DNA from: Terrabacter sp. MAHUQ-38
Lineage (GTDB): Bacteria; Actinomycetota; Actinomycetes; Actinomycetales; Dermatophilaceae
Length of the DNA stretch: 64,000 nt
Assembly: GCF_014518425.1 (NCBI RefSeq)
Contig: NZ_JACVCU010000001.1
Coordinates: 558,001-622,000 of the forward strand
Direction of reading: 5' to 3'
Position numbers and translations under genes: made by a program. Below the pieces are notes generated by a model. It made no database searches, had not been told where the DNA came from, and worked only from the letters and a program-made list of their open reading frames with translations. This document shows, piece by piece, positions 5,644 through 57,075 of the stretch. Position 1 is the stretch's first letter; the number at the start of each line of letters is the position of its first letter.

Positions 5644-6660
5644 TCAGCGCCAGCCCAGCCCTGGCGCGACGTGCGTGAGCACGCTCTCGATGACGTGGGC
5701 GTTGTAGTCGACACCGAGCTGGTTCGGCACGGTGAGCAGCAGCGTGTCGGCGGCCGCGATCGCCTCGTCCTCGGCGAGGTCGCGGAGGAGCTGGTCGGGC
5801 TCACCGGCATACGTCTTGCCGAAGCGCGCGGTGCCGCCGTCGATGATGCCGACCTGGTCCTGGCTGGCCGCCTCGCGGCCGAAGTAGGCGTGGTCGACGT
5901 CCGTGACGATGGGGAAGACGCTGCGGCTCACCGATACCCGGGGCTCGCGCTCGTGGCCGGCCGCGCGCCACGCGTCGCGGAAGCGCTGGATCTGCTCGGC
6001 CTGAAGCTGGTGCAAGGGCACGCCCGTGTCCTCGGTGAGCAGCGTCGAGCTCATGAGGTTCATCCCCTGCGCCGCGGTCCACTCAGCCGTCGCGCGGCTG
6101 CCTGCACCCCACCAGATGCGCTCGCGCAGGCCGGGCGAGTGCGGTTCGACGCGGAGCAGGCCGGGCGGGTTGGGGAACATCGGGCGCGGGTTCGGCTCGG
6201 CGAAACCCTTGCCGGAGAGGACGTCGAGGAACGCCTGAGTGTGCTCGCGCGCCATCGCGGCGTGGTCGCCGTCCGCCGGCTCGAAGCCGAAGTACCGGAA
6301 GCCGTCGACGACCTGCTCGGGTGACCCGCGGCTGATGCCGAGCTGCAGCCGTCCGCCCGAGATGAGGTCAGCGGCGCCGGCGTCCTCCGCCATGTAGAGC
6401 GGGTTCTCGTAGCGCATGTCGATGACGCCGGTGCCGATCTCGATCCGGCTCGTGCGCGCCCCGACGGCGGCCAGCAGCGGGAAGGGTGACGCGAGCTGCC
6501 GCGCGAAGTGGTGCACGCGGAAGTAGGCACCGTCGGCGCCCAGCTCCTCGGCCGCGACGGCGAGGTCGATCGACTGGAGCAGCGCATCGGACGCGGACCG
6601 CGTCTGCGAGTGCGGCGAGGGGTTCCAGTGCCCGAACGAGAGGAAGCCGATGTTCTTCAC
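5644..6660 (-). CDS. Luciferase-like (LLM) flavin-dependent oxidoreductase
   Basis: A 338-residue member of the bacterial luciferase-like family, which uses reduced FMN or F420 to oxidise small organic substrates. Typical marks are the N-terminal strand GFLSFGHW, the core ELGADGAYFRVHHF, the substrate/flavin segment IEIGTGVIDMRYENPLYMAEDA, and GGRLQLGISRGSPEQV. I place the start at GTG 6660 because the family begins at this strand; the frame upstream is open for another 49 codons but looks noncoding. It converges with the SDR gene, with a 12-bp gap. No cofactor-specific residue decides between FMN and F420. Confidence 0.88.
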   Translation of the reverse strand: MKNIGFLSFGHWNPSPHSQTRSASDALLQSIDLAVAAEELGADGAYFRVHHFARQLASPFPLLAAVGARTSRIEIGTGVIDMRYENPLYMAEDAGAADLISGGRLQLGISRGSPEQVVDGFRYFGFEPADGDHAAMAREHTQAFLDVLSGKGFAEPNPRPMFPNPPGLLRVEPHSPGLRERIWWGAGSRATAEWTAAQGMNLMSSTLLTEDTGVPLHQLQAEQIQRFRDAWRAAGHEREPRVSVSRSVFPIVTDVDHAYFGREAASQDQVGIIDGGTARFGKTYAGEPDQLLRDLAEDEAIAAADTLLLTVPNQLGVDYNAHVIESVLTHVAPGLGWR

Positions 6661-6754
6661 GTGGCGTGCAACAACGCGGGTGTCCGCACCCTTCCCGGGC
6701 CCTGGGTCGGCGCTCCGGACAATCCGCCCGGCCCGTCGGCACCGAACGCCGGAC

Positions 6755-8335
6755 ATGACGCGCCTACGACCTGCCCTGAGCGGGATCCTCGCCGCGGTCG
6801 CCGGCATCGCTGCCGGTCACCTCGTCGCCGGCTTCCTCGCGCCGGCCTCGTCGCCGGTGCTCGCCATCGGCTCGACGGTGATCGACCTGACGCCGACGCC
6901 GGTCAAGGAGTGGGCGATCGCGACCTTCGGGAACGCCGACAAGGCGATCCTGCAGGCCTCGGTGCTCGTCGTGACGCTGACTCTCGCGGCTGGGGCGGGC
7001 CTGCTCGCCCGCCGCCGGCTCCCGCTCGCGATCGGCTTCATCGTGCTGCTGACCGGCCTCGCCGGAGTCGCCGCGCTGCTGCGGCCGACCGCAGGCGTGG
7101 TGGACGCGTTCCCGGCCCTCGCTGCCATGGCCCTCGGCGTCGCCACCCTCGTCTGGCTCGCGCGCTCCGCGCGTGCCGCGACGGGCGACGCACCGACGGA
7201 GGCCGCCAGGCGGCGCGACGTGACGACCGGTCCACGCGGCTCTCTCATGACGAACGCCACCGACCCCGCCACACGAGCCGCCACCGGCCGGCGCCGTTTC
7301 CTCGGCGGCGCCCTCGGCGTCACCGTGCTCTCGGTGCTCGCCGCCGGCGGCGGCCAGCTGCGCAGCAGCGCCCAGGCCGCGAAGAGGATCGTGCTCCCGC
7401 AGGCCGCCGACCCCGCGAAGGCCCTGCCCAGGGGGCTCGAGGCCACCGTCCCCGGCATCTCGCCCCTGCGCACGCCGACCAACACCTTCTACCGCGTCGA
7501 CACGAACCTCGTCGTGCCCACGGTCGACGTCGACGCCTGGACCCTCGAAGTCGGCGGCATGGTCGAGACGCCGTTCAGCGTGACCTTCGCCGAGCTCGCC
7601 GCCACGCCGCTCATCGAGCGCGACATCACGATGACGTGTGTCTCCAACGAGGTCGGCGGCGGCTACGTCGGCGCGGCCCGATGGCTCGGCGTGCGCCTCA
7701 CCGACGTCCTCGACCGCGCGGGAACGACGGGCAGACCCGACCAGCTGCTCAGCACCGCCGTCGACGGCTTCACGATCAGCACGCCGCTCGACGTCCTCCG
7801 CGACGGACGGGACGCGATGATCGCCATCGGCATGAACGGCGCCCAGCTCTCTGACGTCCACGGCTTCCCGGCCCGCCTCGTCACGCCGGGGCTCTACGGC
7901 TTCGTCGGCGCGACGAAGTGGCTGGCGAAGCTGACCCTGACCACGTATGCCGCCGACCAGGCGTACTGGACCAGGCGCCAGTGGGCGACGGACGCTCCCA
8001 TCAAGACGAGCGCGCGCATCGACACCCCCGCGCCCCTCTCGACGGTCCGGGCGGGCACGGTCGCCATTGGCGGCGTGGCCTGGGCCCAGCACCGCGGTGT
8101 GGGCAGGGTCGAGGTCCGCATCGACGACGGCCCTTGGCAGGAGACCAGGCTCGGCCCCGACGTCGGCATCGACTACTGGCGCCAGTGGTACCTCGCCTGG
8201 GAGGCGAAGCCCGGCCTGCACCGACTCGCCGTCCGCGCCACGGACCTGCAGGGCGGGCTCCAGATCACCGAACGAGCCACTCCCTTTCCCGACGGGTCGA
8301 GCGGGATCCAGGAGGTGGTGGTGACCGTCGCGTGA
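6755..8335 (+). CDS. Membrane-anchored sulfite-oxidase-type molybdopterin enzyme
   Basis: A 526-residue protein. The first 150 residues carry four or so membrane helices. A basic linker with RRRFLGGALGVTVLSVLAAG (Tat-like, or a further anchor) follows, then the oxidoreductase molybdopterin domain. The Mo-ligand cysteine is C295 in MTCVSNEVGG. The C-terminal Ig-like dimerisation domain is recognisable (STVRAGTVAIGGVAW, then VEVRIDDGPW). The catalytic domain is expected outside the membrane. Family members oxidise sulfite or reduce oxidised sulfur or methionine; the natural substrate is not known. It precedes a fasciclin lipoprotein and SigK/RskA genes, an order met in actinobacteria, suggesting a shared envelope redox role. 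Confidence 0.88.
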   Translation: MTRLRPALSGILAAVAGIAAGHLVAGFLAPASSPVLAIGSTVIDLTPTPVKEWAIATFGNADKAILQASVLVVTLTLAAGAGLLARRRLPLAIGFIVLLTGLAGVAALLRPTAGVVDAFPALAAMALGVATLVWLARSARAATGDAPTEAARRRDVTTGPRGSLMTNATDPATRAATGRRRFLGGALGVTVLSVLAAGGGQLRSSAQAAKRIVLPQAADPAKALPRGLEATVPGISPLRTPTNTFYRVDTNLVVPTVDVDAWTLEVGGMVETPFSVTFAELAATPLIERDITMTCVSNEVGGGYVGAARWLGVRLTDVLDRAGTTGRPDQLLSTAVDGFTISTPLDVLRDGRDAMIAIGMNGAQLSDVHGFPARLVTPGLYGFVGATKWLAKLTLTTYAADQAYWTRRQWATDAPIKTSARIDTPAPLSTVRAGTVAIGGVAWAQHRGVGRVEVRIDDGPWQETRLGPDVGIDYWRQWYLAWEAKPGLHRLAVRATDLQGGLQITERATPFPDGSSGIQEVVVTVA

Positions 8336-8431
8336 CAAGCAACGACGACGCTCCCGAAAAAACCTGTGCCCCAAGCCAATCCGGAGCCGTCGCGGCGCCG
8401 AACCCCTGCTGACCTCGCACCACCCAGCCAC

Positions 8432-8445
8432 AAGGAGTGACTGAC
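8432..8445 (+). promoter_or_regulatory. Strong ribosome binding site
   Basis: AAGGAG at 8432-8437 lies 8 nt before ATG 8446 and decides that start over an in-frame GTG at 8437. Confidence 0.7.
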
Positions 8446-9111
8446 ATGAAGACCATGAAGACCCGCACCGCCCTCGTCGCCCTCGCGATCGCCCTGCCGC
8501 TGACCCTCGCCGCCTGCGGCAGCTCGTCCGACACCTCGGCCGCTGCCGGCAGCACGCCCTCGGCCTCCAGCTCGGACGCCATGACCCCCACGCCCTCGGA
8601 GACGATGGCGTCGTCGGACGACGGCATGGCCGACCCGGCGACGCAGGTCTTCGGCGAGGCCTGCTCGGCCGTGCCGAAGGACGGCAAGGGCTCGTTCACC
8701 GGAATGGCGACCGACCCCGTCGCGACCGCTGCGAGCAACAACCAGCTGCTCTCGACCCTCGTCACCGCCGTCAAGGCCGCCGGCCTCGTCGACACCCTCA
8801 ACTCGGCGCCTGACGTCACCGTCTTCGCGCCGACCAACGACGCGTTCGCCAAGATCCCGGCCGACACGCTGAAGAAGGTCCTGGCCGACAAGCCGACCCT
8901 GACCAAGATCCTCACGAACCACGTCGTCGCGGGCACGCTGTCCCCAGACCAGCTCGCGGGCACGCACAAGACGCTCGCGGGCACCGAGCTGACGGTCGCG
9001 GGCTCGGGCGAGTCCTTCACCGTCGGCAAGGAGAAGGCCGCCGTCCTCTGCGGCAACGTCCCGACCGCCAACGCGACCGTGTACATCGTCGACTCCGTCC
9101 TGATGCCCTGA
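8446..9111 (+). CDS. Fasciclin-domain lipoprotein (MPT83/MPT70-like)
   Basis: A 221-residue exported lipoprotein. The signal peptide ends in the lipobox LAAC with Cys24 as the acylated residue. A Ser/Thr/Ala-rich linker of about 45 residues precedes one FAS1 domain, recognised by TVFAPTNDAFAKIP and TNHVVAGTLSPDQL. In Mycobacterium the homologous MPT70/MPT83 proteins are the main SigK targets, and here the gene lies just upstream of sigK-rskA. FAS1 domains act in adhesion; the precise ligand is unknown. It lies 111 bp after the molybdoenzyme gene on the same strand and may be co-transcribed with it. Confidence 0.92.
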   Translation: MKTMKTRTALVALAIALPLTLAACGSSSDTSAAAGSTPSASSSDAMTPTPSETMASSDDGMADPATQVFGEACSAVPKDGKGSFTGMATDPVATAASNNQLLSTLVTAVKAAGLVDTLNSAPDVTVFAPTNDAFAKIPADTLKKVLADKPTLTKILTNHVVAGTLSPDQLAGTHKTLAGTELTVAGSGESFTVGKEKAAVLCGNVPTANATVYIVDSVLMP

Positions 9112-9167
9112 CCGTCACCCGGCCACGGCTGACGCAGACCACGACGACGGGCGAGACAATGGACCCC

Positions 9168-9770
9168 ATGTCACGGTTCTCGGTGGTTCCCTCCGGCGAC
9201 GGGTCGCCGGAGGGAACCGCCCGCCCCGTCACGCTGGAGCAGCTGCTCCGCAGGTCGGCGACCGGGGACGAGACGGCCTTCGCCGAGCTGTACGACGCGG
9301 TCTCTCCACGGCTCTTCGGCCTCGTCCGCCGCGTCGTGCGCGACCCCGCCCAGTCCGAGGAGGTCGCGCAGGAGGTCTTTCTCGAGATCTGGCGGCACAG
9401 CGCACGGTTCGACCCCGGCAAGGGCGGCGCGCTCTCGTGGATGCTCACCATCGCCCACCGCAAGGCCGTCGACCGGGTCAGGTCCGCCGAGGCGGCCCGG
9501 CACCGCGACGAGGGCTACGGCTCGAGCAACCAGGACGTGACGCACGACTCCACCGCGGAGGCCGTCGTCGAACGGCTCGATGCGGAGCGGGTCCACCGGG
9601 CCCTGGACACCCTGACGCCCGCCCAACGCCAGGCGCTCGAGCTGGCCTACCTCTCGGGCTACACGCATACGGAGGTGGCGACCATGCTCGACCTGCCACT
9701 CGGGACAGCCAAGACGCGCATCCGTGATGGACTCATCAGACTACGAGACACGTTGGGGGTGACACGGTGA
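9168..9770 (+). CDS. sigK: ECF RNA polymerase sigma factor, SigK-like
   Basis: A 200-residue ECF sigma factor. Region 2 is clear (FAELYDAVSPRLFGLVRRVV, QEVFLEIWR, ALSWMLTIAHRKAVDRVR), as is region 4 with its helix-turn-helix (LTPAQRQALELAYLSGYTHTEVA, then LPLGTAKTRIRDGL). ATG 9168 is preferred to ATG 9159 because -10-like GACAAT ends 7 nt before it. Its stop overlaps the GTG of the anti-sigma gene, the usual coupled arrangement. The first 17 codons contain a perfect 15-bp inverted repeat, described separately. SigK assignment rests on the RskA-type partner and the fasciclin neighbour. Confidence 0.88.
   Translation: MSRFSVVPSGDGSPEGTARPVTLEQLLRRSATGDETAFAELYDAVSPRLFGLVRRVVRDPAQSEEVAQEVFLEIWRHSARFDPGKGGALSWMLTIAHRKAVDRVRSAEAARHRDEGYGSSNQDVTHDSTAEAVVERLDAERVHRALDTLTPAQRQALELAYLSGYTHTEVATMLDLPLGTAKTRIRDGLIRLRDTLGVTR
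9185..9218 (+). promoter_or_regulatory. Perfect 15-bp hairpin in the 5' coding region of the sigma factor gene
   Basis: GGTTCCCTCCGGCGA at 9185-9199 and its exact reverse complement at 9204-9218 flank a 4-nt loop (CGGG). A G-U pair and two G-C pairs extend the stem to 18 bp outward. It starts 17 nt after the A of ATG 9168 and sits inside codons 6-17, before the conserved sigma domains. This could sequester the translation start region of a leaderless mRNA or act as an attenuator. Function is inference; the repeat itself is seen directly. Confidence 0.8.
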
Positions 9771-10573
9771 ACGACGACATCCACGCTCTCTCCGGCGCCT
9801 ACGCCGTGGACGCCCTCGACGACGCCGAGCGGGCACGGTTCGAACGACACCTCGCGGGATGCACCGCCTGCCAGGCCGAGGTCGAGAGCCTCTTCGCGGC
9901 CGCATCCGAGCTGTCGGTCCTCACCGAGGCCACGCCTCCGGCATCCCTGCGCGCAAAGGTGCTCGGCGACATCGCGACCGTCCGTCCTCTGCCTCCGCTG
10001 ACGGCGCCCACCGACCAGTCTCGCGACCAGGCCGGCGACCAGCCCAGCGACCAGCCCGGCGACCAGCTGGGCGACGGGGCCGACGCCCCACCCGTGGAGC
10101 AGCTTGCCGACCGGCGTCGCGCACGAGGACTGTCCCGCGGCTGGCGCGGGCTCGTCGCGGCCGCGACCGTCGCCGTGCTGGCGATCAGCGGGTTCGTCGT
10201 GTGGCGGCAGGTCAACGCCGACCCGGCGAGGACGATCGCCGAGCAGGTGCTCGCCGCGGGCGACGCCACGCGGACCTCGAAGACCTTCGCCGACGGGTCC
10301 ACCGCGACGATGGTGCGGTCCGGCTCGCTCCACAAGGCCGTCATCATCACGAGCGGCATGGCGCAGCCTCCGGGTGGCAAGGTCTACCAGCTCTGGCTGC
10401 AGGACCCGACCGGGCACATGGCCTCGGCCGGTGTCATGCCCCCGGGCCCCGACCAGGTCGTCGTCCTCGAGGGCGATGCGAGCAAGGCGACGGGCGCCGG
10501 GATCACCATCGAGCCGGCAGGCGGCTCGGGACAGCCGACGTCCGACCCGATCGCCCTGTTCAGCTTCGCCTGA
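9767..10573 (+). CDS. rskA: Anti-sigma-K factor, RskA-like
   Basis: A 268-residue single-pass membrane anti-sigma factor. The N-terminal zinc-associated motif H-x3-C-x2-C is at His28, Cys32 and Cys35. A variable cytosolic linker follows, then one membrane helix (about residues 128-146), then an extracytoplasmic RskA-type domain (VYQLWLQDPTGHMASAG). Such proteins hold SigK inactive until stepwise proteolysis releases it. The linker contains a degenerate tandem repeat of four residues (DQSR, DQAG, DQPS, DQPG, DQLG). GTG 9767 overlaps the sigma stop, giving roughly matched synthesis of the pair. Confidence 0.9.
   Translation: MNDDIHALSGAYAVDALDDAERARFERHLAGCTACQAEVESLFAAASELSVLTEATPPASLRAKVLGDIATVRPLPPLTAPTDQSRDQAGDQPSDQPGDQLGDGADAPPVEQLADRRRARGLSRGWRGLVAAATVAVLAISGFVVWRQVNADPARTIAEQVLAAGDATRTSKTFADGSTATMVRSGSLHKAVIITSGMAQPPGGKVYQLWLQDPTGHMASAGVMPPGPDQVVVLEGDASKATGAGITIEPAGGSGQPTSDPIALFSFA
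10018..10077. repeat. 12-bp tandem repeat in the anti-sigma linker
   Basis: Five imperfect copies of a 12-bp unit, GACCAG followed by six more variable bases. They encode DQxG/S tetrapeptides between the zinc-binding domain and the membrane helix of the anti-sigma factor. The repeat is probably a flexible spacer. Confidence 0.8.
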
Positions 10574-10642
10574 CCCTCCGGCCCCACCCCGCGCGAGTCT
10601 CGCCCCGGCTGAGTTGGCGTGGCTCGTGCGGAGGCGCGGCTA

Positions 10643-10677
10643 TTGCGCTACCGCAGTTAATGCGGCACGATGGTCAC
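10643..10677 (+). promoter_or_regulatory. Promoter with embedded palindrome, leaderless start
   Basis: TTGCGC (10643-10648), 17-bp spacer, CACGAT (10666-10671), then 6 nt to ATG 10678. The spacer holds the inverted repeat CCGCA-gttaa-TGCGG (10651-10665), well placed for a repressor to block RNA polymerase. Confidence 0.55.
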
Positions 10678-11106
10678 ATGAACAGCAGCGAGCACCAGCC
10701 GCCGGCACCCGAGGCCTCGAGCGAGACCGTCCGGGCCGCGATCGAGGCCGCCACGGCGGCACTCGCCCAGGCCGATCCGACGACGCCGAGTTCCGCCCTG
10801 CCCCTGCTGCGCTCCGCCCAGGAGCACGTCACCACGGCCATCGACGAGGCCATGGCCGCACTGCTCGTCGCCGAGGGCGGCACCATCCGCACCGCGGGCG
10901 CCCTCGCCGGCCTGTCGGAGAACGCCGTCGGGCCGCGGTTGGCCCGCACGCGACTGCTCGCGGCATACGGCTCGGAGTCCGGACGCGTCACGGCGGCCGG
11001 CGTCGAGCGCGCCCGCTACGACCTCGAGGAGGGACGCCACCGCGCGGGGGCCGACCTGCCCGACCAGCCCAAGCCGATGCGTTTCCGCGCGCGTCGCACC
11101 ACCTAG
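10678..11106 (+). CDS. Hypothetical protein, helix-rich
   Basis: A 142-residue soluble protein not recognised as a named family. Residues 12-70 look like two or three amphipathic helices (ETVRAAIEAATAALAQ, ALPLLRSAQEHVTTAIDEAMAALLVAEG). A short segment, TIRTAGALAGLSENAVGPRLARTRLLAAYG, has helix-turn-helix character, so a DNA-binding role is possible but unproven. The C-terminus is basic. The start is supported by the promoter 6 nt upstream. Confidence 0.7.
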   Translation: MNSSEHQPPAPEASSETVRAAIEAATAALAQADPTTPSSALPLLRSAQEHVTTAIDEAMAALLVAEGGTIRTAGALAGLSENAVGPRLARTRLLAAYGSESGRVTAAGVERARYDLEEGRHRAGADLPDQPKPMRFRARRTT

Positions 11107-20082: not shown

Positions 20083-20210
20083 GCGGGTCCAGATTTCGGC
20101 CCTTTCCCACCGCCTCGGTGGGAATGCTCGCCTCAGCGCCTCCGGCAGACCACGCCCCGCACCCGCCGACCGCGGGTCCCCACGAGCCTCCCACGAACGC
20201 CCCACCCCCG

Positions 20211-20313
20211 TTGCGCGCGCTCGTGATGTGAGCGCGCGATCCGTGCATCGGCGCGTGAAATTTCGCGCGCCTCGCCCCTGTTTCGCGCGCTCAGGCCTGA
20301 AGCGCGCGAAACA
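20211..20313. repeat. Alternating palindrome array, locus 1
   Basis: This fills much of the gene-free stretch 20046-20347. Type A palindromes: 20214-20238 (CGCGCGCTC-N7-GAGCGCGCG) and 20279-20313 (13-bp perfect arms, TGTTTCGCGCGCT). Between them is a type B palindrome at 20251-20270 with no loop, pairing GCGCGTGAAA with TTTCGCGCGC (one G-U). The order A-B-A and the sequences match the second locus at 56 kb. A 19-bp word, CCTGTTTCGCGCGCTCAGG, is shared exactly by both loci. Confidence 0.85.
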
Positions 20314-20347
20314 TCCCGGGTCTGGGGGGCGTCGCGTCGAGGGCCCG

Positions 20348-22785: not shown

Positions 22786-23807
22786 GCCTTGACCTTCCTG
22801 ATCCATTGGTCGACGGAGACGGCGATGATGACGAGGACGCCGGTCGCGAGGACGCGGAACTGCTGGTCGACGCCGCCCAACGAGAGACCGAACTGCAGCG
22901 ACTGGACGATGAGCGCACCGATGAGCGTGCCGACCAGCCGGCCCCGGCCGCCGAAGAGGCTCGTGCCGCCGATGACGACTGCCGTGATGCTGTTGAGGTT
23001 GGCGTCGACGATGGCGTTCGGCGTGGCCGCGCCGGAGCGGCCGATGAGGACCCATGCGGCGATGCCGTAGATGAGCCCGGCCACGGTGTAGACCGTGAGG
23101 AGGACCCGCTGGGTCGCCACGCCGGAAAGGCGAGCGGCCTCGCGGTCGTCTCCGACCGCGTACACGTGCCGGCCCCAGGCCGTCTGCGAAAGGGCGAATC
23201 CGACCGCGAGGTACATCACGCCGACGGCCACGACACCCCACGTGAGGCGGAAGCCACCGCGCGGGCCGAAGCCCTCGCCGAGCGAGTTGAGCAGGCCGGG
23301 GAGGTGGTCGGCCTGGATGCTCGAGCCGCCGGAGTAGAGCAGCGCGATCGCGGTGAAGATGCTCAGGGTCCCCAGCGTCACGATGAACGGTGGCAGGTTG
23401 AGCCTCGTCACGAGCACGCCGTTGAGGTACCCGGCGGCGACCGCGAGGAGCAATCCGATGAGCAGAGCCAGGAACCCGTTCATTCCGCCGTCCTGCGCCA
23501 GGCTCGCCATCACCATCATCGACAGGACGGTGATCGCGCCGACGGACAGGTCGATGCCGGCCGTGAGGATGATGAGGGTCTGGCCGATTGCGAGCGCCGC
23601 GACGACAGCCGTCTGCTGCAGCATCAGCCCCATCGACGAGGGCGACGCGAACCGGGGGTTGAGCGTCGTGAAGGCGATGAACGCGATGACGAGAATGAAG
23701 AGCGGGCTCAGCCACGGGTATCCGTGCAGCACGTGCTGGATCCGCTGGAGCGGGCTCTGCTGCCGCCGAGCGAACTCGGCGGCAGCAGTGGACTGGGTGG
23801 CGGTCAT
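22782..23807 (-). CDS. Sugar ABC transporter permease (RbsC/FrcC family)
   Basis: A 341-residue BPD_transp_2 family permease with eight to ten hydrophobic helices. Conserved landmarks are TLIILTAGIDLSVGAITVLSMM, NGVLVTRLNLPPFIVTLGT and GAIGG-like VIGGTSLFGGRGRLVGTLIGALIV. This family imports pentoses, fructose and related sugars with an RbsB-type binding protein. It lies between the binding-protein and ATPase genes, with a 3-bp gap upstream and a 4-bp overlap downstream. Confidence 0.93.
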   Translation of the reverse strand: MTATQSTAAAEFARRQQSPLQRIQHVLHGYPWLSPLFILVIAFIAFTTLNPRFASPSSMGLMLQQTAVVAALAIGQTLIILTAGIDLSVGAITVLSMMVMASLAQDGGMNGFLALLIGLLLAVAAGYLNGVLVTRLNLPPFIVTLGTLSIFTAIALLYSGGSSIQADHLPGLLNSLGEGFGPRGGFRLTWGVVAVGVMYLAVGFALSQTAWGRHVYAVGDDREAARLSGVATQRVLLTVYTVAGLIYGIAAWVLIGRSGAATPNAIVDANLNSITAVVIGGTSLFGGRGRLVGTLIGALIVQSLQFGLSLGGVDQQFRVLATGVLVIIAVSVDQWIRKVKA

Positions 23808-51775: not shown

Positions 51776-52785
51776 CGGCTCGTCTCCTCACGCCAGTTGA
51801 TGATCTTCAGGTAGATGGCCACGACGACGAGGATGAGCAGGACGTTGAAGATGCCCGCGGCGGCGGACATGCCGACGTCCTTCTCCTGGCTCTTGAACGC
51901 CAGCTTGTACATGAACGTGATCGTCGTGTCGTGCAGGTAGCCGGGGTTCCGGTCGTTGAGCGTGTAGATGATCGGGAAGCTGTTGAAGACGTAGATGACG
52001 TTGAGCACCGTCGCGATCATCAACGCCGGGCGCATGAGCGGCAGCGTGATGTTCCAGTAGCGCTGCCACGGGCTCGCGCCGTCGACGGTCGCGGCCTCCA
52101 TGACGTCGTCGGGGATCGCGCCGAGGCCGGCGATGAACACGAAGATCGTGAACGGCAGCGACACGAAGACGCCGACGACGACCATCGAGAACATCGTCCA
52201 GCTGTCGTTGCCGAGGAAGTCGATCGGCGTGCTGATCAGGTGCAGGCCCTGCAGGACGTGGTTGATGATCCCGTAGTTGTAGTCGTAGAGCAGCACGAAG
52301 AGCTGGCTCGTGATGATGAGCGAGGCAGCCCACGGGATGATGACGGCCCAGCGTACGAAGCGCCGCCCCGGAAACGGCTTCACGAGGAACTGCGCCAGGG
52401 CCAGGCCGATGACGATCGTGACCGCGACGACGGCGACCACCCACACGACGGTGTTGAGCAGGACCGTGCCGAGGTCGGGGTGGGCCAGGACCTTGGCGTA
52501 GTTGTCCCAGCCGGCATCGCCCTTGCGCAGGCCCGTGATCGAGTACTCCCCGCGTGAGGCGTCGAAGAGCTTGATCGCCGGGTAGAGCACGACGCCGAGG
52601 ATGAGCGCGAGCGCCGGCGCGAGCCAGAGCAGCGCGACGAGGGGGTGGACCTGGCCGATGCGGCCGGCCCGCCTGCGACGGGACGGGCGGGACGGCATAC
52701 GGGAGCCGGGGTCCCCCGACCCCGCAGCTGCGGCGGGGTCGGGGGTCACGGTGGTGCGCTCGGTCATCGCGGACGCGAACCTCAT
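51772..52785 (-). CDS. Carbohydrate ABC permease, MalF type
   Basis: A 337-residue CUT1 permease: a 50-residue polar N-terminus, then helices (first VALLWLAPALALILGVVLYPAIKLF) and the EAA loop DDVMEAATVDGASPWQRYWNITLPLMRP. ATG 52785 overlaps the binding-protein stop (ATGA); a second in-frame ATG, 18 bp later, is possible. Confidence 0.93.
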   Translation of the reverse strand: MRFASAMTERTTVTPDPAAAAGSGDPGSRMPSRPSRRRRAGRIGQVHPLVALLWLAPALALILGVVLYPAIKLFDASRGEYSITGLRKGDAGWDNYAKVLAHPDLGTVLLNTVVWVVAVVAVTIVIGLALAQFLVKPFPGRRFVRWAVIIPWAASLIITSQLFVLLYDYNYGIINHVLQGLHLISTPIDFLGNDSWTMFSMVVVGVFVSLPFTIFVFIAGLGAIPDDVMEAATVDGASPWQRYWNITLPLMRPALMIATVLNVIYVFNSFPIIYTLNDRNPGYLHDTTITFMYKLAFKSQEKDVGMSAAAGIFNVLLILVVVAIYLKIINWREETSR

Positions 52786-56068: not shown

Positions 56069-56240
56069 CGCGCGCTCCAGCCCTGAGCGCGCGGTTCAAC
56101 CCGAGGCGCGTGACATTTCGCGCGCCTCACGGACGTTTCGCGCGCTCAATCCAGAAGCGCGCGATCCGGACCCGAGCGCGTGACATCTCGCGCGCCCAGA
56201 ACCTGTTTCGCGCGCTCAGGTCAGGAGCGCGCGAAACAGG
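56069..56240. repeat. Alternating palindrome array, locus 2
   Basis: Five palindromes in order A-B-A-B-A between convergent genes. A: 56069-56093, 56138-56164, 56202-56240. B: 56103-56128 (26 bp, no loop, two imperfect pairs) and 56176-56195. The last A unit has a perfect 16-bp stem (CCTGTTTCGCGCGCTC and its complement) with a 7-nt loop, ending 1 bp from the aldolase stop, so it probably also terminates transcription. Sequences match locus 1 at 20.2 kb. Confidence 0.88.
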
Positions 56241-56241
56241 G

Positions 56242-57075
56242 TCAGCGGAGGGCGAGGAGCTGCAGGAGGCGGGCGGCCTCGTCGGTGACCGCGTCGCGGG
56301 CCGCGCCGAGGTAGACCCTCGTGTCCACGGTCGGCGACTGCTCGAGACGGCCGGTCATCGCGCGCGTGAAGACCTGGTTGAGGTGCGTCGCGATGTTGAC
56401 CTTCGTCATGCCCGCCCGCACCGCCGCGACGAGGCCGTCGTCGGGGACGCCCGACGAGCCGTGCAGCACGAGCGGCACCGGCACCGAGTCGCGCAGTGCC
56501 GCAATGAGGTCCGTGTCGAGCTCGGCGGTCCGGTCGGTCATGGCGTGACTGCTGCCGACGGCGACCGCCAGTGCGTCGACACCCGTCTCGGCGACGAACC
56601 GGGCGGCGGCCGCGGGATCGGTGCGGGCCCCCGGGGCGTGCACGCCGTCCTTGCCCCCCACCTCACCGAGCTCGGCCTCGATGCTCATGCCGGCGCCGCG
56701 GCACAGCTCGACGACGCGCCGGGTGGCGGCGCGGTTCTCCTCGTCGGGCAGCGTCGACCCGTCGAACATGACCGACGTGAGCCCGAGCCGCACCGCCTCC
56801 GCGACGAGGTCGGCGTCCTCGGCGTGGTCGAGGTGGACGACGACGGGCTGGTCGCACGCGTCGGCGATCGCGAGCGTCGCGGCCGCGAGGGGCGCGAGCG
56901 ACCCGTGGTAGCGGACGCAGTTCTCCGAGATCTGCATGACGACCGGGAGGCGGACGCGTTCGGCCGCGGCGGCGTACGCCTCGGCGTGCTCGATCTGGAC
57001 GACGTTGAAGGCCGCGACGGCACGCCCGGCGGCTGACGCCTCCGCAAGCAGGGGCGTGAGGGGCGAACGGCTCAC
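56242..57075 (-). CDS. Class II fructose/tagatose-bisphosphate aldolase
   Basis: A 277-residue class II aldolase (GatY/KbaY/Fba family). The zinc and substrate residues are visible in VVVHLDHAEDADLV, MSIEAELGEVGG, VGSSHAMTD and PLVLHGSSGVPDD. It would split tagatose-1,6-bisphosphate or fructose-1,6-bisphosphate into triose phosphates. GTG 57075 has a GAGGAG ribosome binding site 8 nt upstream and overlaps the kinase stop. It is the last gene of a three-gene operon. Confidence 0.9.
   Translation of the reverse strand: MSRSPLTPLLAEASAAGRAVAAFNVVQIEHAEAYAAAAERVRLPVVMQISENCVRYHGSLAPLAAATLAIADACDQPVVVHLDHAEDADLVAEAVRLGLTSVMFDGSTLPDEENRAATRRVVELCRGAGMSIEAELGEVGGKDGVHAPGARTDPAAAARFVAETGVDALAVAVGSSHAMTDRTAELDTDLIAALRDSVPVPLVLHGSSGVPDDGLVAAVRAGMTKVNIATHLNQVFTRAMTGRLEQSPTVDTRVYLGAARDAVTDEAARLLQLLALR

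Follow-up and report, generated by a model that had tools for sequence, protein, structure and literature searches.

The window analysed here, a stretch of 64,000 nucleotides, carries on its plus strand a molybdopterin oxidoreductase gene (Oxidored_molyb, 6755-8335, start approximate), a fasciclin-domain gene (Pfam PF02469, 8446-9111) encoding a lipoprotein-like N-terminus, a sigK-type ECF sigma factor gene with sigma-70 region 2 and region 4 (9168-9770), and an rskA-type anti-sigma gene (RskA_C, RskA_N and zf-HC2; 9767-10573) that overlaps the sigK stop. The start of sigK is either ATG 9168 or the in-frame ATG 9159. The gap between the fasciclin gene and sigK is 56 nt, and a -10-like hexamer, GACAAT (9155-9160, plus strand), ends 7 nt before ATG 9168, as the earlier note on this DNA had stated. 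A hairpin sits 70 nt beyond the fasciclin stop codon; its main stem starts 14 nt past the A of ATG 9168, and the structure spans sigK codons 5-18 (numbered from 9168).

Structure and conservation of the hairpin

The stem consists of 18 base pairs between a 5′ arm at 9182-9199 and a 3′ arm at 9204-9221, with one G-U pair (T-G) and a 4-nt loop, CGGG, at 9200-9203, all on the plus strand. Within it, 9185-9199 is the exact reverse complement of 9204-9218, giving 15 perfect pairs, which verifies the original description of a perfect 15-bp hairpin extendable to 18 bp with one G-U. The 9182-9221 hairpin can alternatively be drawn with 19-nt arms and a 2-nt loop. When the sense strand of positions 9160-9240 (81 nt) was folded as RNA, an energy of -49.9 kcal/mol was obtained, compared with -34.9 kcal/mol (sd 3.4) for shuffled sequences (z -4.4), and none of 200 shuffles was equally stable; the hairpin alone accounts for -38.8 kcal/mol at 37 °C. 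The 64 kb contain two perfect stems that reach 15 bp or more (loop 3-10), one of them the hairpin at the sigK start; none arose in 20 Markov-1 simulations of the window. Two more perfect stems in the window measure 14 bp (23757-23788) and 13 bp (52713-52745).

A dispersed repeat or mobile palindrome was ruled out: among the matches listed for the 5.16-Mb genome, there is no extra copy of the 16-nt arm with fewer than two mismatches. A known RNA family was likewise ruled out, since an Rfam search of 8900-9500 gave nothing at the curated threshold and returned two sub-threshold miRNA matches, both on the minus strand. Elsewhere in the window, at 20210-20325 and 56080-56245, a TTTCGCGCGC / GCGCGCGAAA motif forms clusters between genes, and both clusters have the palindrome TGTTTCGCGCGCT...AGCGCGCGAAACA. 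The 12-mer GAGCGCGCGAAA has 23 copies in the genome, often as close pairs, compared with 2 for the reversed control: a dispersed intergenic repeat family.

The structure at the sigK start goes beyond what the encoded peptide dictates, as only 3 of 1000 synonymous recodings of the window reached the observed stem score. In 16 chosen relatives (200 recodings each), between 0 and 4 reached it in 14 cases, and 12 and 13 in the other two (L192 and L025); this null applied the codon usage of four window genes to every locus. The earlier note had proposed that sigK orthologues be examined for compensatory changes in the stem, and these were found: in close relatives (L009-L011 and L022) the stem is present and has been retained through such changes. 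The comparison drew on 15 homologous stretches, 13 of them distinct; pairing holds in 95.3% of pair cells, and both sides have changed at 6 of the 18 pairs. None of 500 shuffles matched the observed covariation on four of five measures; the remaining measure, further pair types, was matched by 63 of 500. The 18-bp/4-nt register is fitted with at least 14 pairs by 58 of 102 loci, and the covariation count took 15 of them, close relatives sharing the register.

In Nocardioides and in other genera of the window's family, a hairpin of unrelated sequence stands in the same place. The hairpin recurs in the coded families f1, f34, f40 and f43 and in Nocardioidaceae, possibly one of these four; we infer that f1 is Intrasporangiaceae, the window's family, and that f34 is Nocardioidaceae. 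The compensatory changes, together with this renewal of sequence at a fixed place in other genera and families, uphold the proposal in the earlier note that these nucleotides are under selection. A chance hairpin of GC-rich codons would gain from the frequency of moderate stems at high GC (in 639 interior sigK windows, the stem score has its 95th percentile at 38.1), and from the two relatives in which a dozen or so recodings reached the observed score. Set against this are the synonymous null in the window itself, the covariation and the recurrence among families, and we give chance almost no credence.

The composition of the pairs bears on the molecule in which the hairpin acts. A strand-symmetric rule yielded 61 non-redundant stems, in which G-U pairs number 67 and A-C pairs 28, an excess expected of a sense-strand RNA and not of a DNA palindrome. 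Template switching can generate perfect palindromes, and the arms are perfect or nearly perfect in many loci. Such arms could reflect a DNA palindrome, either the operator of a regulator or a product of template-switch repair formed without RNA selection. We regard this as very unlikely, because an operator should keep its sequence whereas here the sequence varies between families while position and pairing persist, because of the G-U excess, and because the presence of the hairpin depends on the neighbouring fasciclin gene.

Dependence on the fasciclin neighbour

The survey comprised 213 distinct sigK-type loci, left from 220 with a tblastn match after removal of seven identical stretches; the best 80 of 120 prepared regions had been taken (40 of 60 for the family and 40 of 60 for the class), with lower-scoring ones omitted. 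Loci were classed by the distance from the stop of a same-strand fasciclin gene to the codon aligned with residue 26: at most 180 nt in 102 loci, farther in 8, and no fasciclin gene found in the examined stretch in 103, the 180-nt limit having been chosen after looking at the data. The stem score was used because minimum folding energy is confounded by GC (85 of 213 interior stretches reach -32). A score of at least 38 at the sigK start was found in 86 of the 102 loci with fasciclin near, in none of the 8 with fasciclin farther away and in 6 of the 103 with none found (Fisher p 3e-33 for stem score against fasciclin neighbour, relatedness ignored). When loci at least 61% identical to the window's were considered, the score was reached in 85 of 98 with fasciclin near and in 1 of 23 without fasciclin found.

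Sixteen of the 102 fasciclin-near loci score below 38, and nine of these lie at 34-37. Among the remaining seven, the hairpins of L177, L178 and L185 are longer or interrupted and that of L126 is imperfect, L209 carries its hairpin in the gap, and L108 and L194 show little hairpin. Some loci with no fasciclin gene found (L012, L019, L128, L158, L191 and L224) have a stem near the place, with energies of -25 to -33 kcal/mol, which we tentatively read as remnants or chance. In L015, a frame lying about 120 nt before the aligned codon ends in ...NDSVLMPKM and resembles the remnant of a lost fasciclin C-terminus; the sigK hairpin of that locus is weak.

The fasciclin state was followed on a FastTree tree of 210 SigK sequences, where it changes 15 times, and supported branches give 6 independent contrasts. 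On average, the hairpin goes the same way as fasciclin in 3.7 of these and runs counter to it in 0.0, which is not significant. The figures include ten hairpin states set by hand (L177, L168, L178, L185, L126, L105 and L159 as present; L108, L194 and L209 as absent); before correction the script scored stems spanning at least 85 nt as absent, and the same contrasts then gave 2.2 and 0.0 of 6. Since the association table ignores descent and the contrasts are few, we place the weight on loci with long gaps and on fasciclin genes without sigK.

In all 8 loci with a distance above 180 nt (L079, L200, L203, L204, L207, L208, L211 and L221), the best stem between the fasciclin stop and sigK lies in the gap, as it does in L209 (152 nt), and in these nine loci it starts 10-52 nt past the fasciclin stop. 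The mean folding profile shifts accordingly: in compact loci it is lowest at the sigK start, and in loci with long gaps the lowest point falls about 200 nt upstream. In three loci of nearly the same spacing as L209 (L105, L111 and L151; 149-157 nt from the fasciclin stop to the aligned codon), the hairpin is within the codons. A score of at least 36 within 130 nt after the fasciclin stop was found at 46 of 50 fasciclin loci, compared with 56 of 356 random windows; the 50 include the window itself and several genomes of the sigK set, and L241 has only 97 nt downstream. By the same measure, 27 of 31 fasciclin genes without sigK downstream carry the stem, and the four misses include L268 and L269, where the stem is shorter and a textbook U-tract is present. 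In one clear case among the 31 (L233), the post-fasciclin hairpin falls within the opening codons of a molybdopterin oxidoreductase gene (Pfam), so that a hairpin inside codons need not be specific to sigK; this case is weak because that stretch encodes an Ala-rich leader. The earlier view that the element belongs to sigK alone is thus probably wrong, because the hairpin follows the fasciclin gene through the near, farther and none-found classes and is present after fasciclin genes without sigK.

The sigK start and its predicted promoter

A hexamer NANNAT stands 6-7 nt before an in-frame ATG or GTG start in 68 of 97 hairpin loci and before 17 of 1116 background ATG/GTG codons, a comparison in which the motif was picked after seeing the sequences and each locus offers about two candidate starts. 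The hexamer loci belong to the window's family and Nocardioidaceae and have gaps of 21-88 nt, so that the element between stop and start is compact and promoter-like. The usual -10 sequence is TANNNT, and the sigK hexamer lacks its first T. Shine-Dalgarno sequences resembling AGGA/GAGG are seen in 27 of the 97 loci, 23 of these 27 in Nocardioidaceae or f34, and the Nocardioidaceae hexamer, often AAGGAT, could double as a Shine-Dalgarno sequence. The presence of the hexamer at 68 of 97 starts suggests that a leaderless promoter of sigK itself probably lies in the gap, with the hairpin downstream; the leaderless message suggested in the earlier note is therefore likely, as a prediction from sequence.

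The position of the hairpin is tied more tightly to sigK than its dependence on fasciclin alone would suggest. In the 68 hexamer loci it begins -8 to +23 nt from the start and reaches or includes the start codon in 12; the standard deviation of its distance is 9.6 to the sigK start and 21.4 to the fasciclin stop. In compact loci it lies wholly in the gap in 0 of 95 (score at least 34), though 23 of 94 gaps measure at least 45 nt. This tighter spacing is not explained by a pure fasciclin terminator, and a second role in sigK expression may exist. A promoter filling the gap may fully account for the shift of the hairpin into the codons; alternatively, a position adjacent to the start may bring a benefit of its own. 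In nine loci (L165, L166, L170, L176, L110, L112, L116, L180 and L185), we observed a longer hairpin between fasciclin and sigK that holds or abuts candidate sigK starts.

These spacings, and the enrichment of the hexamer before the start, are what one would expect of a cis-regulatory hairpin of sigK itself, which near a leaderless 5′ end could limit ribosome loading or early elongation, or recruit an RNase III-like RNase, and so set the amount of sigma factor. Such a hairpin should not vanish with the fasciclin gene, yet similar relatives without fasciclin found reach the score in a single case of 23, the stem stays with fasciclin at long gaps, and it also follows fasciclin genes that have no sigK. 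We consider a hairpin owned by sigK unlikely; the weight we do allow it comes from its place next to the start and never wholly in a compact gap, downstream of the probable promoter.

An RNA thermometer that opens on warming and permits SigK synthesis would also profit from proximity to the start codon, which in some genera lies within or against the stem. In the window, however, the main stem does not include the start codon and in the model is fully paired from 20 to 75 °C, and the stems of hairpin-bearing relatives are mostly at -22 to -48 kcal/mol. The thermosensor suggested in the earlier note thus finds no support in a stem that is unmelted at 75 °C in the model, and we judge it extremely improbable.

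A proposed 3′-end element of the fasciclin mRNA

In our judgement the hairpin is probably an element of the fasciclin mRNA 3′ end, a U-less terminator and/or a barrier to exonucleases, that attenuates sigK-rskA, a reading drawn from the sequence. A canonical intrinsic (Rho-independent) terminator was rejected, as the GC-rich hairpin after the stop is present and the U-tract is absent. The window has no T-rich tract after the 3′ arm; over 95 loci, the 8 nt after the stem hold 0.97 T (maximum 2), compared with 1.05 expected, and a terminator scan of 6500-10800 found two, both on the minus strand elsewhere and none at the hairpin. Ends of the I-shaped or HS-U-lack kind are delimited (PMC8269248) by a folding energy under -23 kcal/mol, computed on 40 nt at 30 °C, and by fewer than 3 U within the 8 nt downstream. 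The window hairpin falls within these bounds, at -38.8 kcal/mol (37 °C) and with 1 T in the next 10 nt. In the same study, 353 of 535 highly structured 3′ ends of Streptomyces clavuligerus are without a U-tract (PMC8269248).

According to this proposal, a very stable GC-rich stem-loop without a U-tract would end transcription and/or block 3′ exonucleases, so that transcripts from the fasciclin side would mostly end at or just after 9221 and a minority would continue into sigK-rskA. The fasciclin message would be abundant and stable, and sigK-rskA expression from shared transcripts would be low. sigK would probably also be transcribed from a leaderless promoter of its own, located in the 56-nt gap, which would place the hairpin near the 5′ end of the sigK mRNA. 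Where fasciclin and sigK are tightly packed, the hairpin would have been absorbed into the weakly constrained first sigK codons. Whether transcription ends at the stem or a longer transcript is trimmed back to it, either event may fit the sequence. From the earlier suggestion of an attenuator, attenuation survives in a form close to this proposal; what changes is its object, as it would act on read-through from the upstream gene.

The placement of such an element close behind a start codon has precedents. In E. coli, terminators function when they lie no more than 100 bp into a coding region, and terminators immediately after a stop codon are repressed by the ribosome (PMC4824070); on this evidence, a hairpin could work tens of nucleotides past one stop and shortly beyond the next start. 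A terminator placed 30 bp after the AUG kept most of its efficiency there, and the present hairpin starts 14 nt after a start and 70 nt past the previous stop. The difference is that the construct of PMC4824070 was engineered in E. coli with tR2, whereas the window hairpin is natural, U-less and conserved across families. The actinobacterial U-less 3′ ends in PMC8269248 also resemble it, each with a stable GC stem-loop, a short loop and fewer than 3 U in 8 nt, located after a stop. That study omitted 342 3′ ends inside ORFs, and the window hairpin, a predicted 3′ end, is inside the codons of the next gene. Both U-less 3′-end hairpins and terminators near starts are thus already known kinds.

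Intercistronic stabilising hairpins also set differential expression within operons, as in the puf operon of Rhodobacter and the malE-malF REP. The likeness is a hairpin between two genes of possibly unequal expression; those hairpins lie in intergenic space, whereas the one at sigK is coding.

Mycobacterial SigK drives the fasciclin-domain antigens MPB70/MPB83 from a separate locus (PMC10540498, PMC7509140). The mycobacterial SigK-RskA regulon combines, as the window does, SigK, RskA and a fasciclin-domain protein, there a target, and by this analogy the fasciclin gene of the window is likely a SigK target. In mycobacteria (PMC10540498, PMC7509140), the fasciclin genes are apart from sigK, whereas in the window fasciclin directly precedes sigK and the signals of the two transcripts would overlap. 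In the open-licence literature on sigK/rskA, leaderless messages, fasciclin, hairpins and terminators, we recognised no account of such an overlap.

A more elaborate version would have leaderless translation gate the terminator, so that one hairpin separates two overlapping transcripts by their 5′ ends. On the fasciclin transcript, the sigK start would be internal and without a Shine-Dalgarno sequence, no ribosome would load, the hairpin would form and the transcript would end. On the leaderless sigK transcript, a 70S ribosome at the 5′ AUG, 14 nt before the stem, would open the hairpin. This arrangement would avoid runaway feedback by read-through and leave the sigK message itself free to pass. 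Translation reduced termination in the E. coli construct by only ~10% (PMC4824070), an effect that counts against a gated terminator, and we consider this version quite unlikely.

Under the proposed 3′-end element, transcripts that end at the hairpin would hold the sigK start without a stop and would be natural substrates of tmRNA rescue, which has been argued for stop-less transcripts of the engineered construct (PMC4824070). The structure at this locus is preserved across several families without conservation of sequence, and a start region, codons and a probable promoter all overlap with it. The locus also carries a caution, in that a hairpin in 5′ coding sequence may be owned by the neighbouring gene and need not be a regulator of the gene that hosts it. 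If the attenuation is real, part of the control over sigma and anti-sigma factor dosage in this class of SigK would lie with the 3′ end of a likely target gene, and gene annotation does not reveal such wiring.
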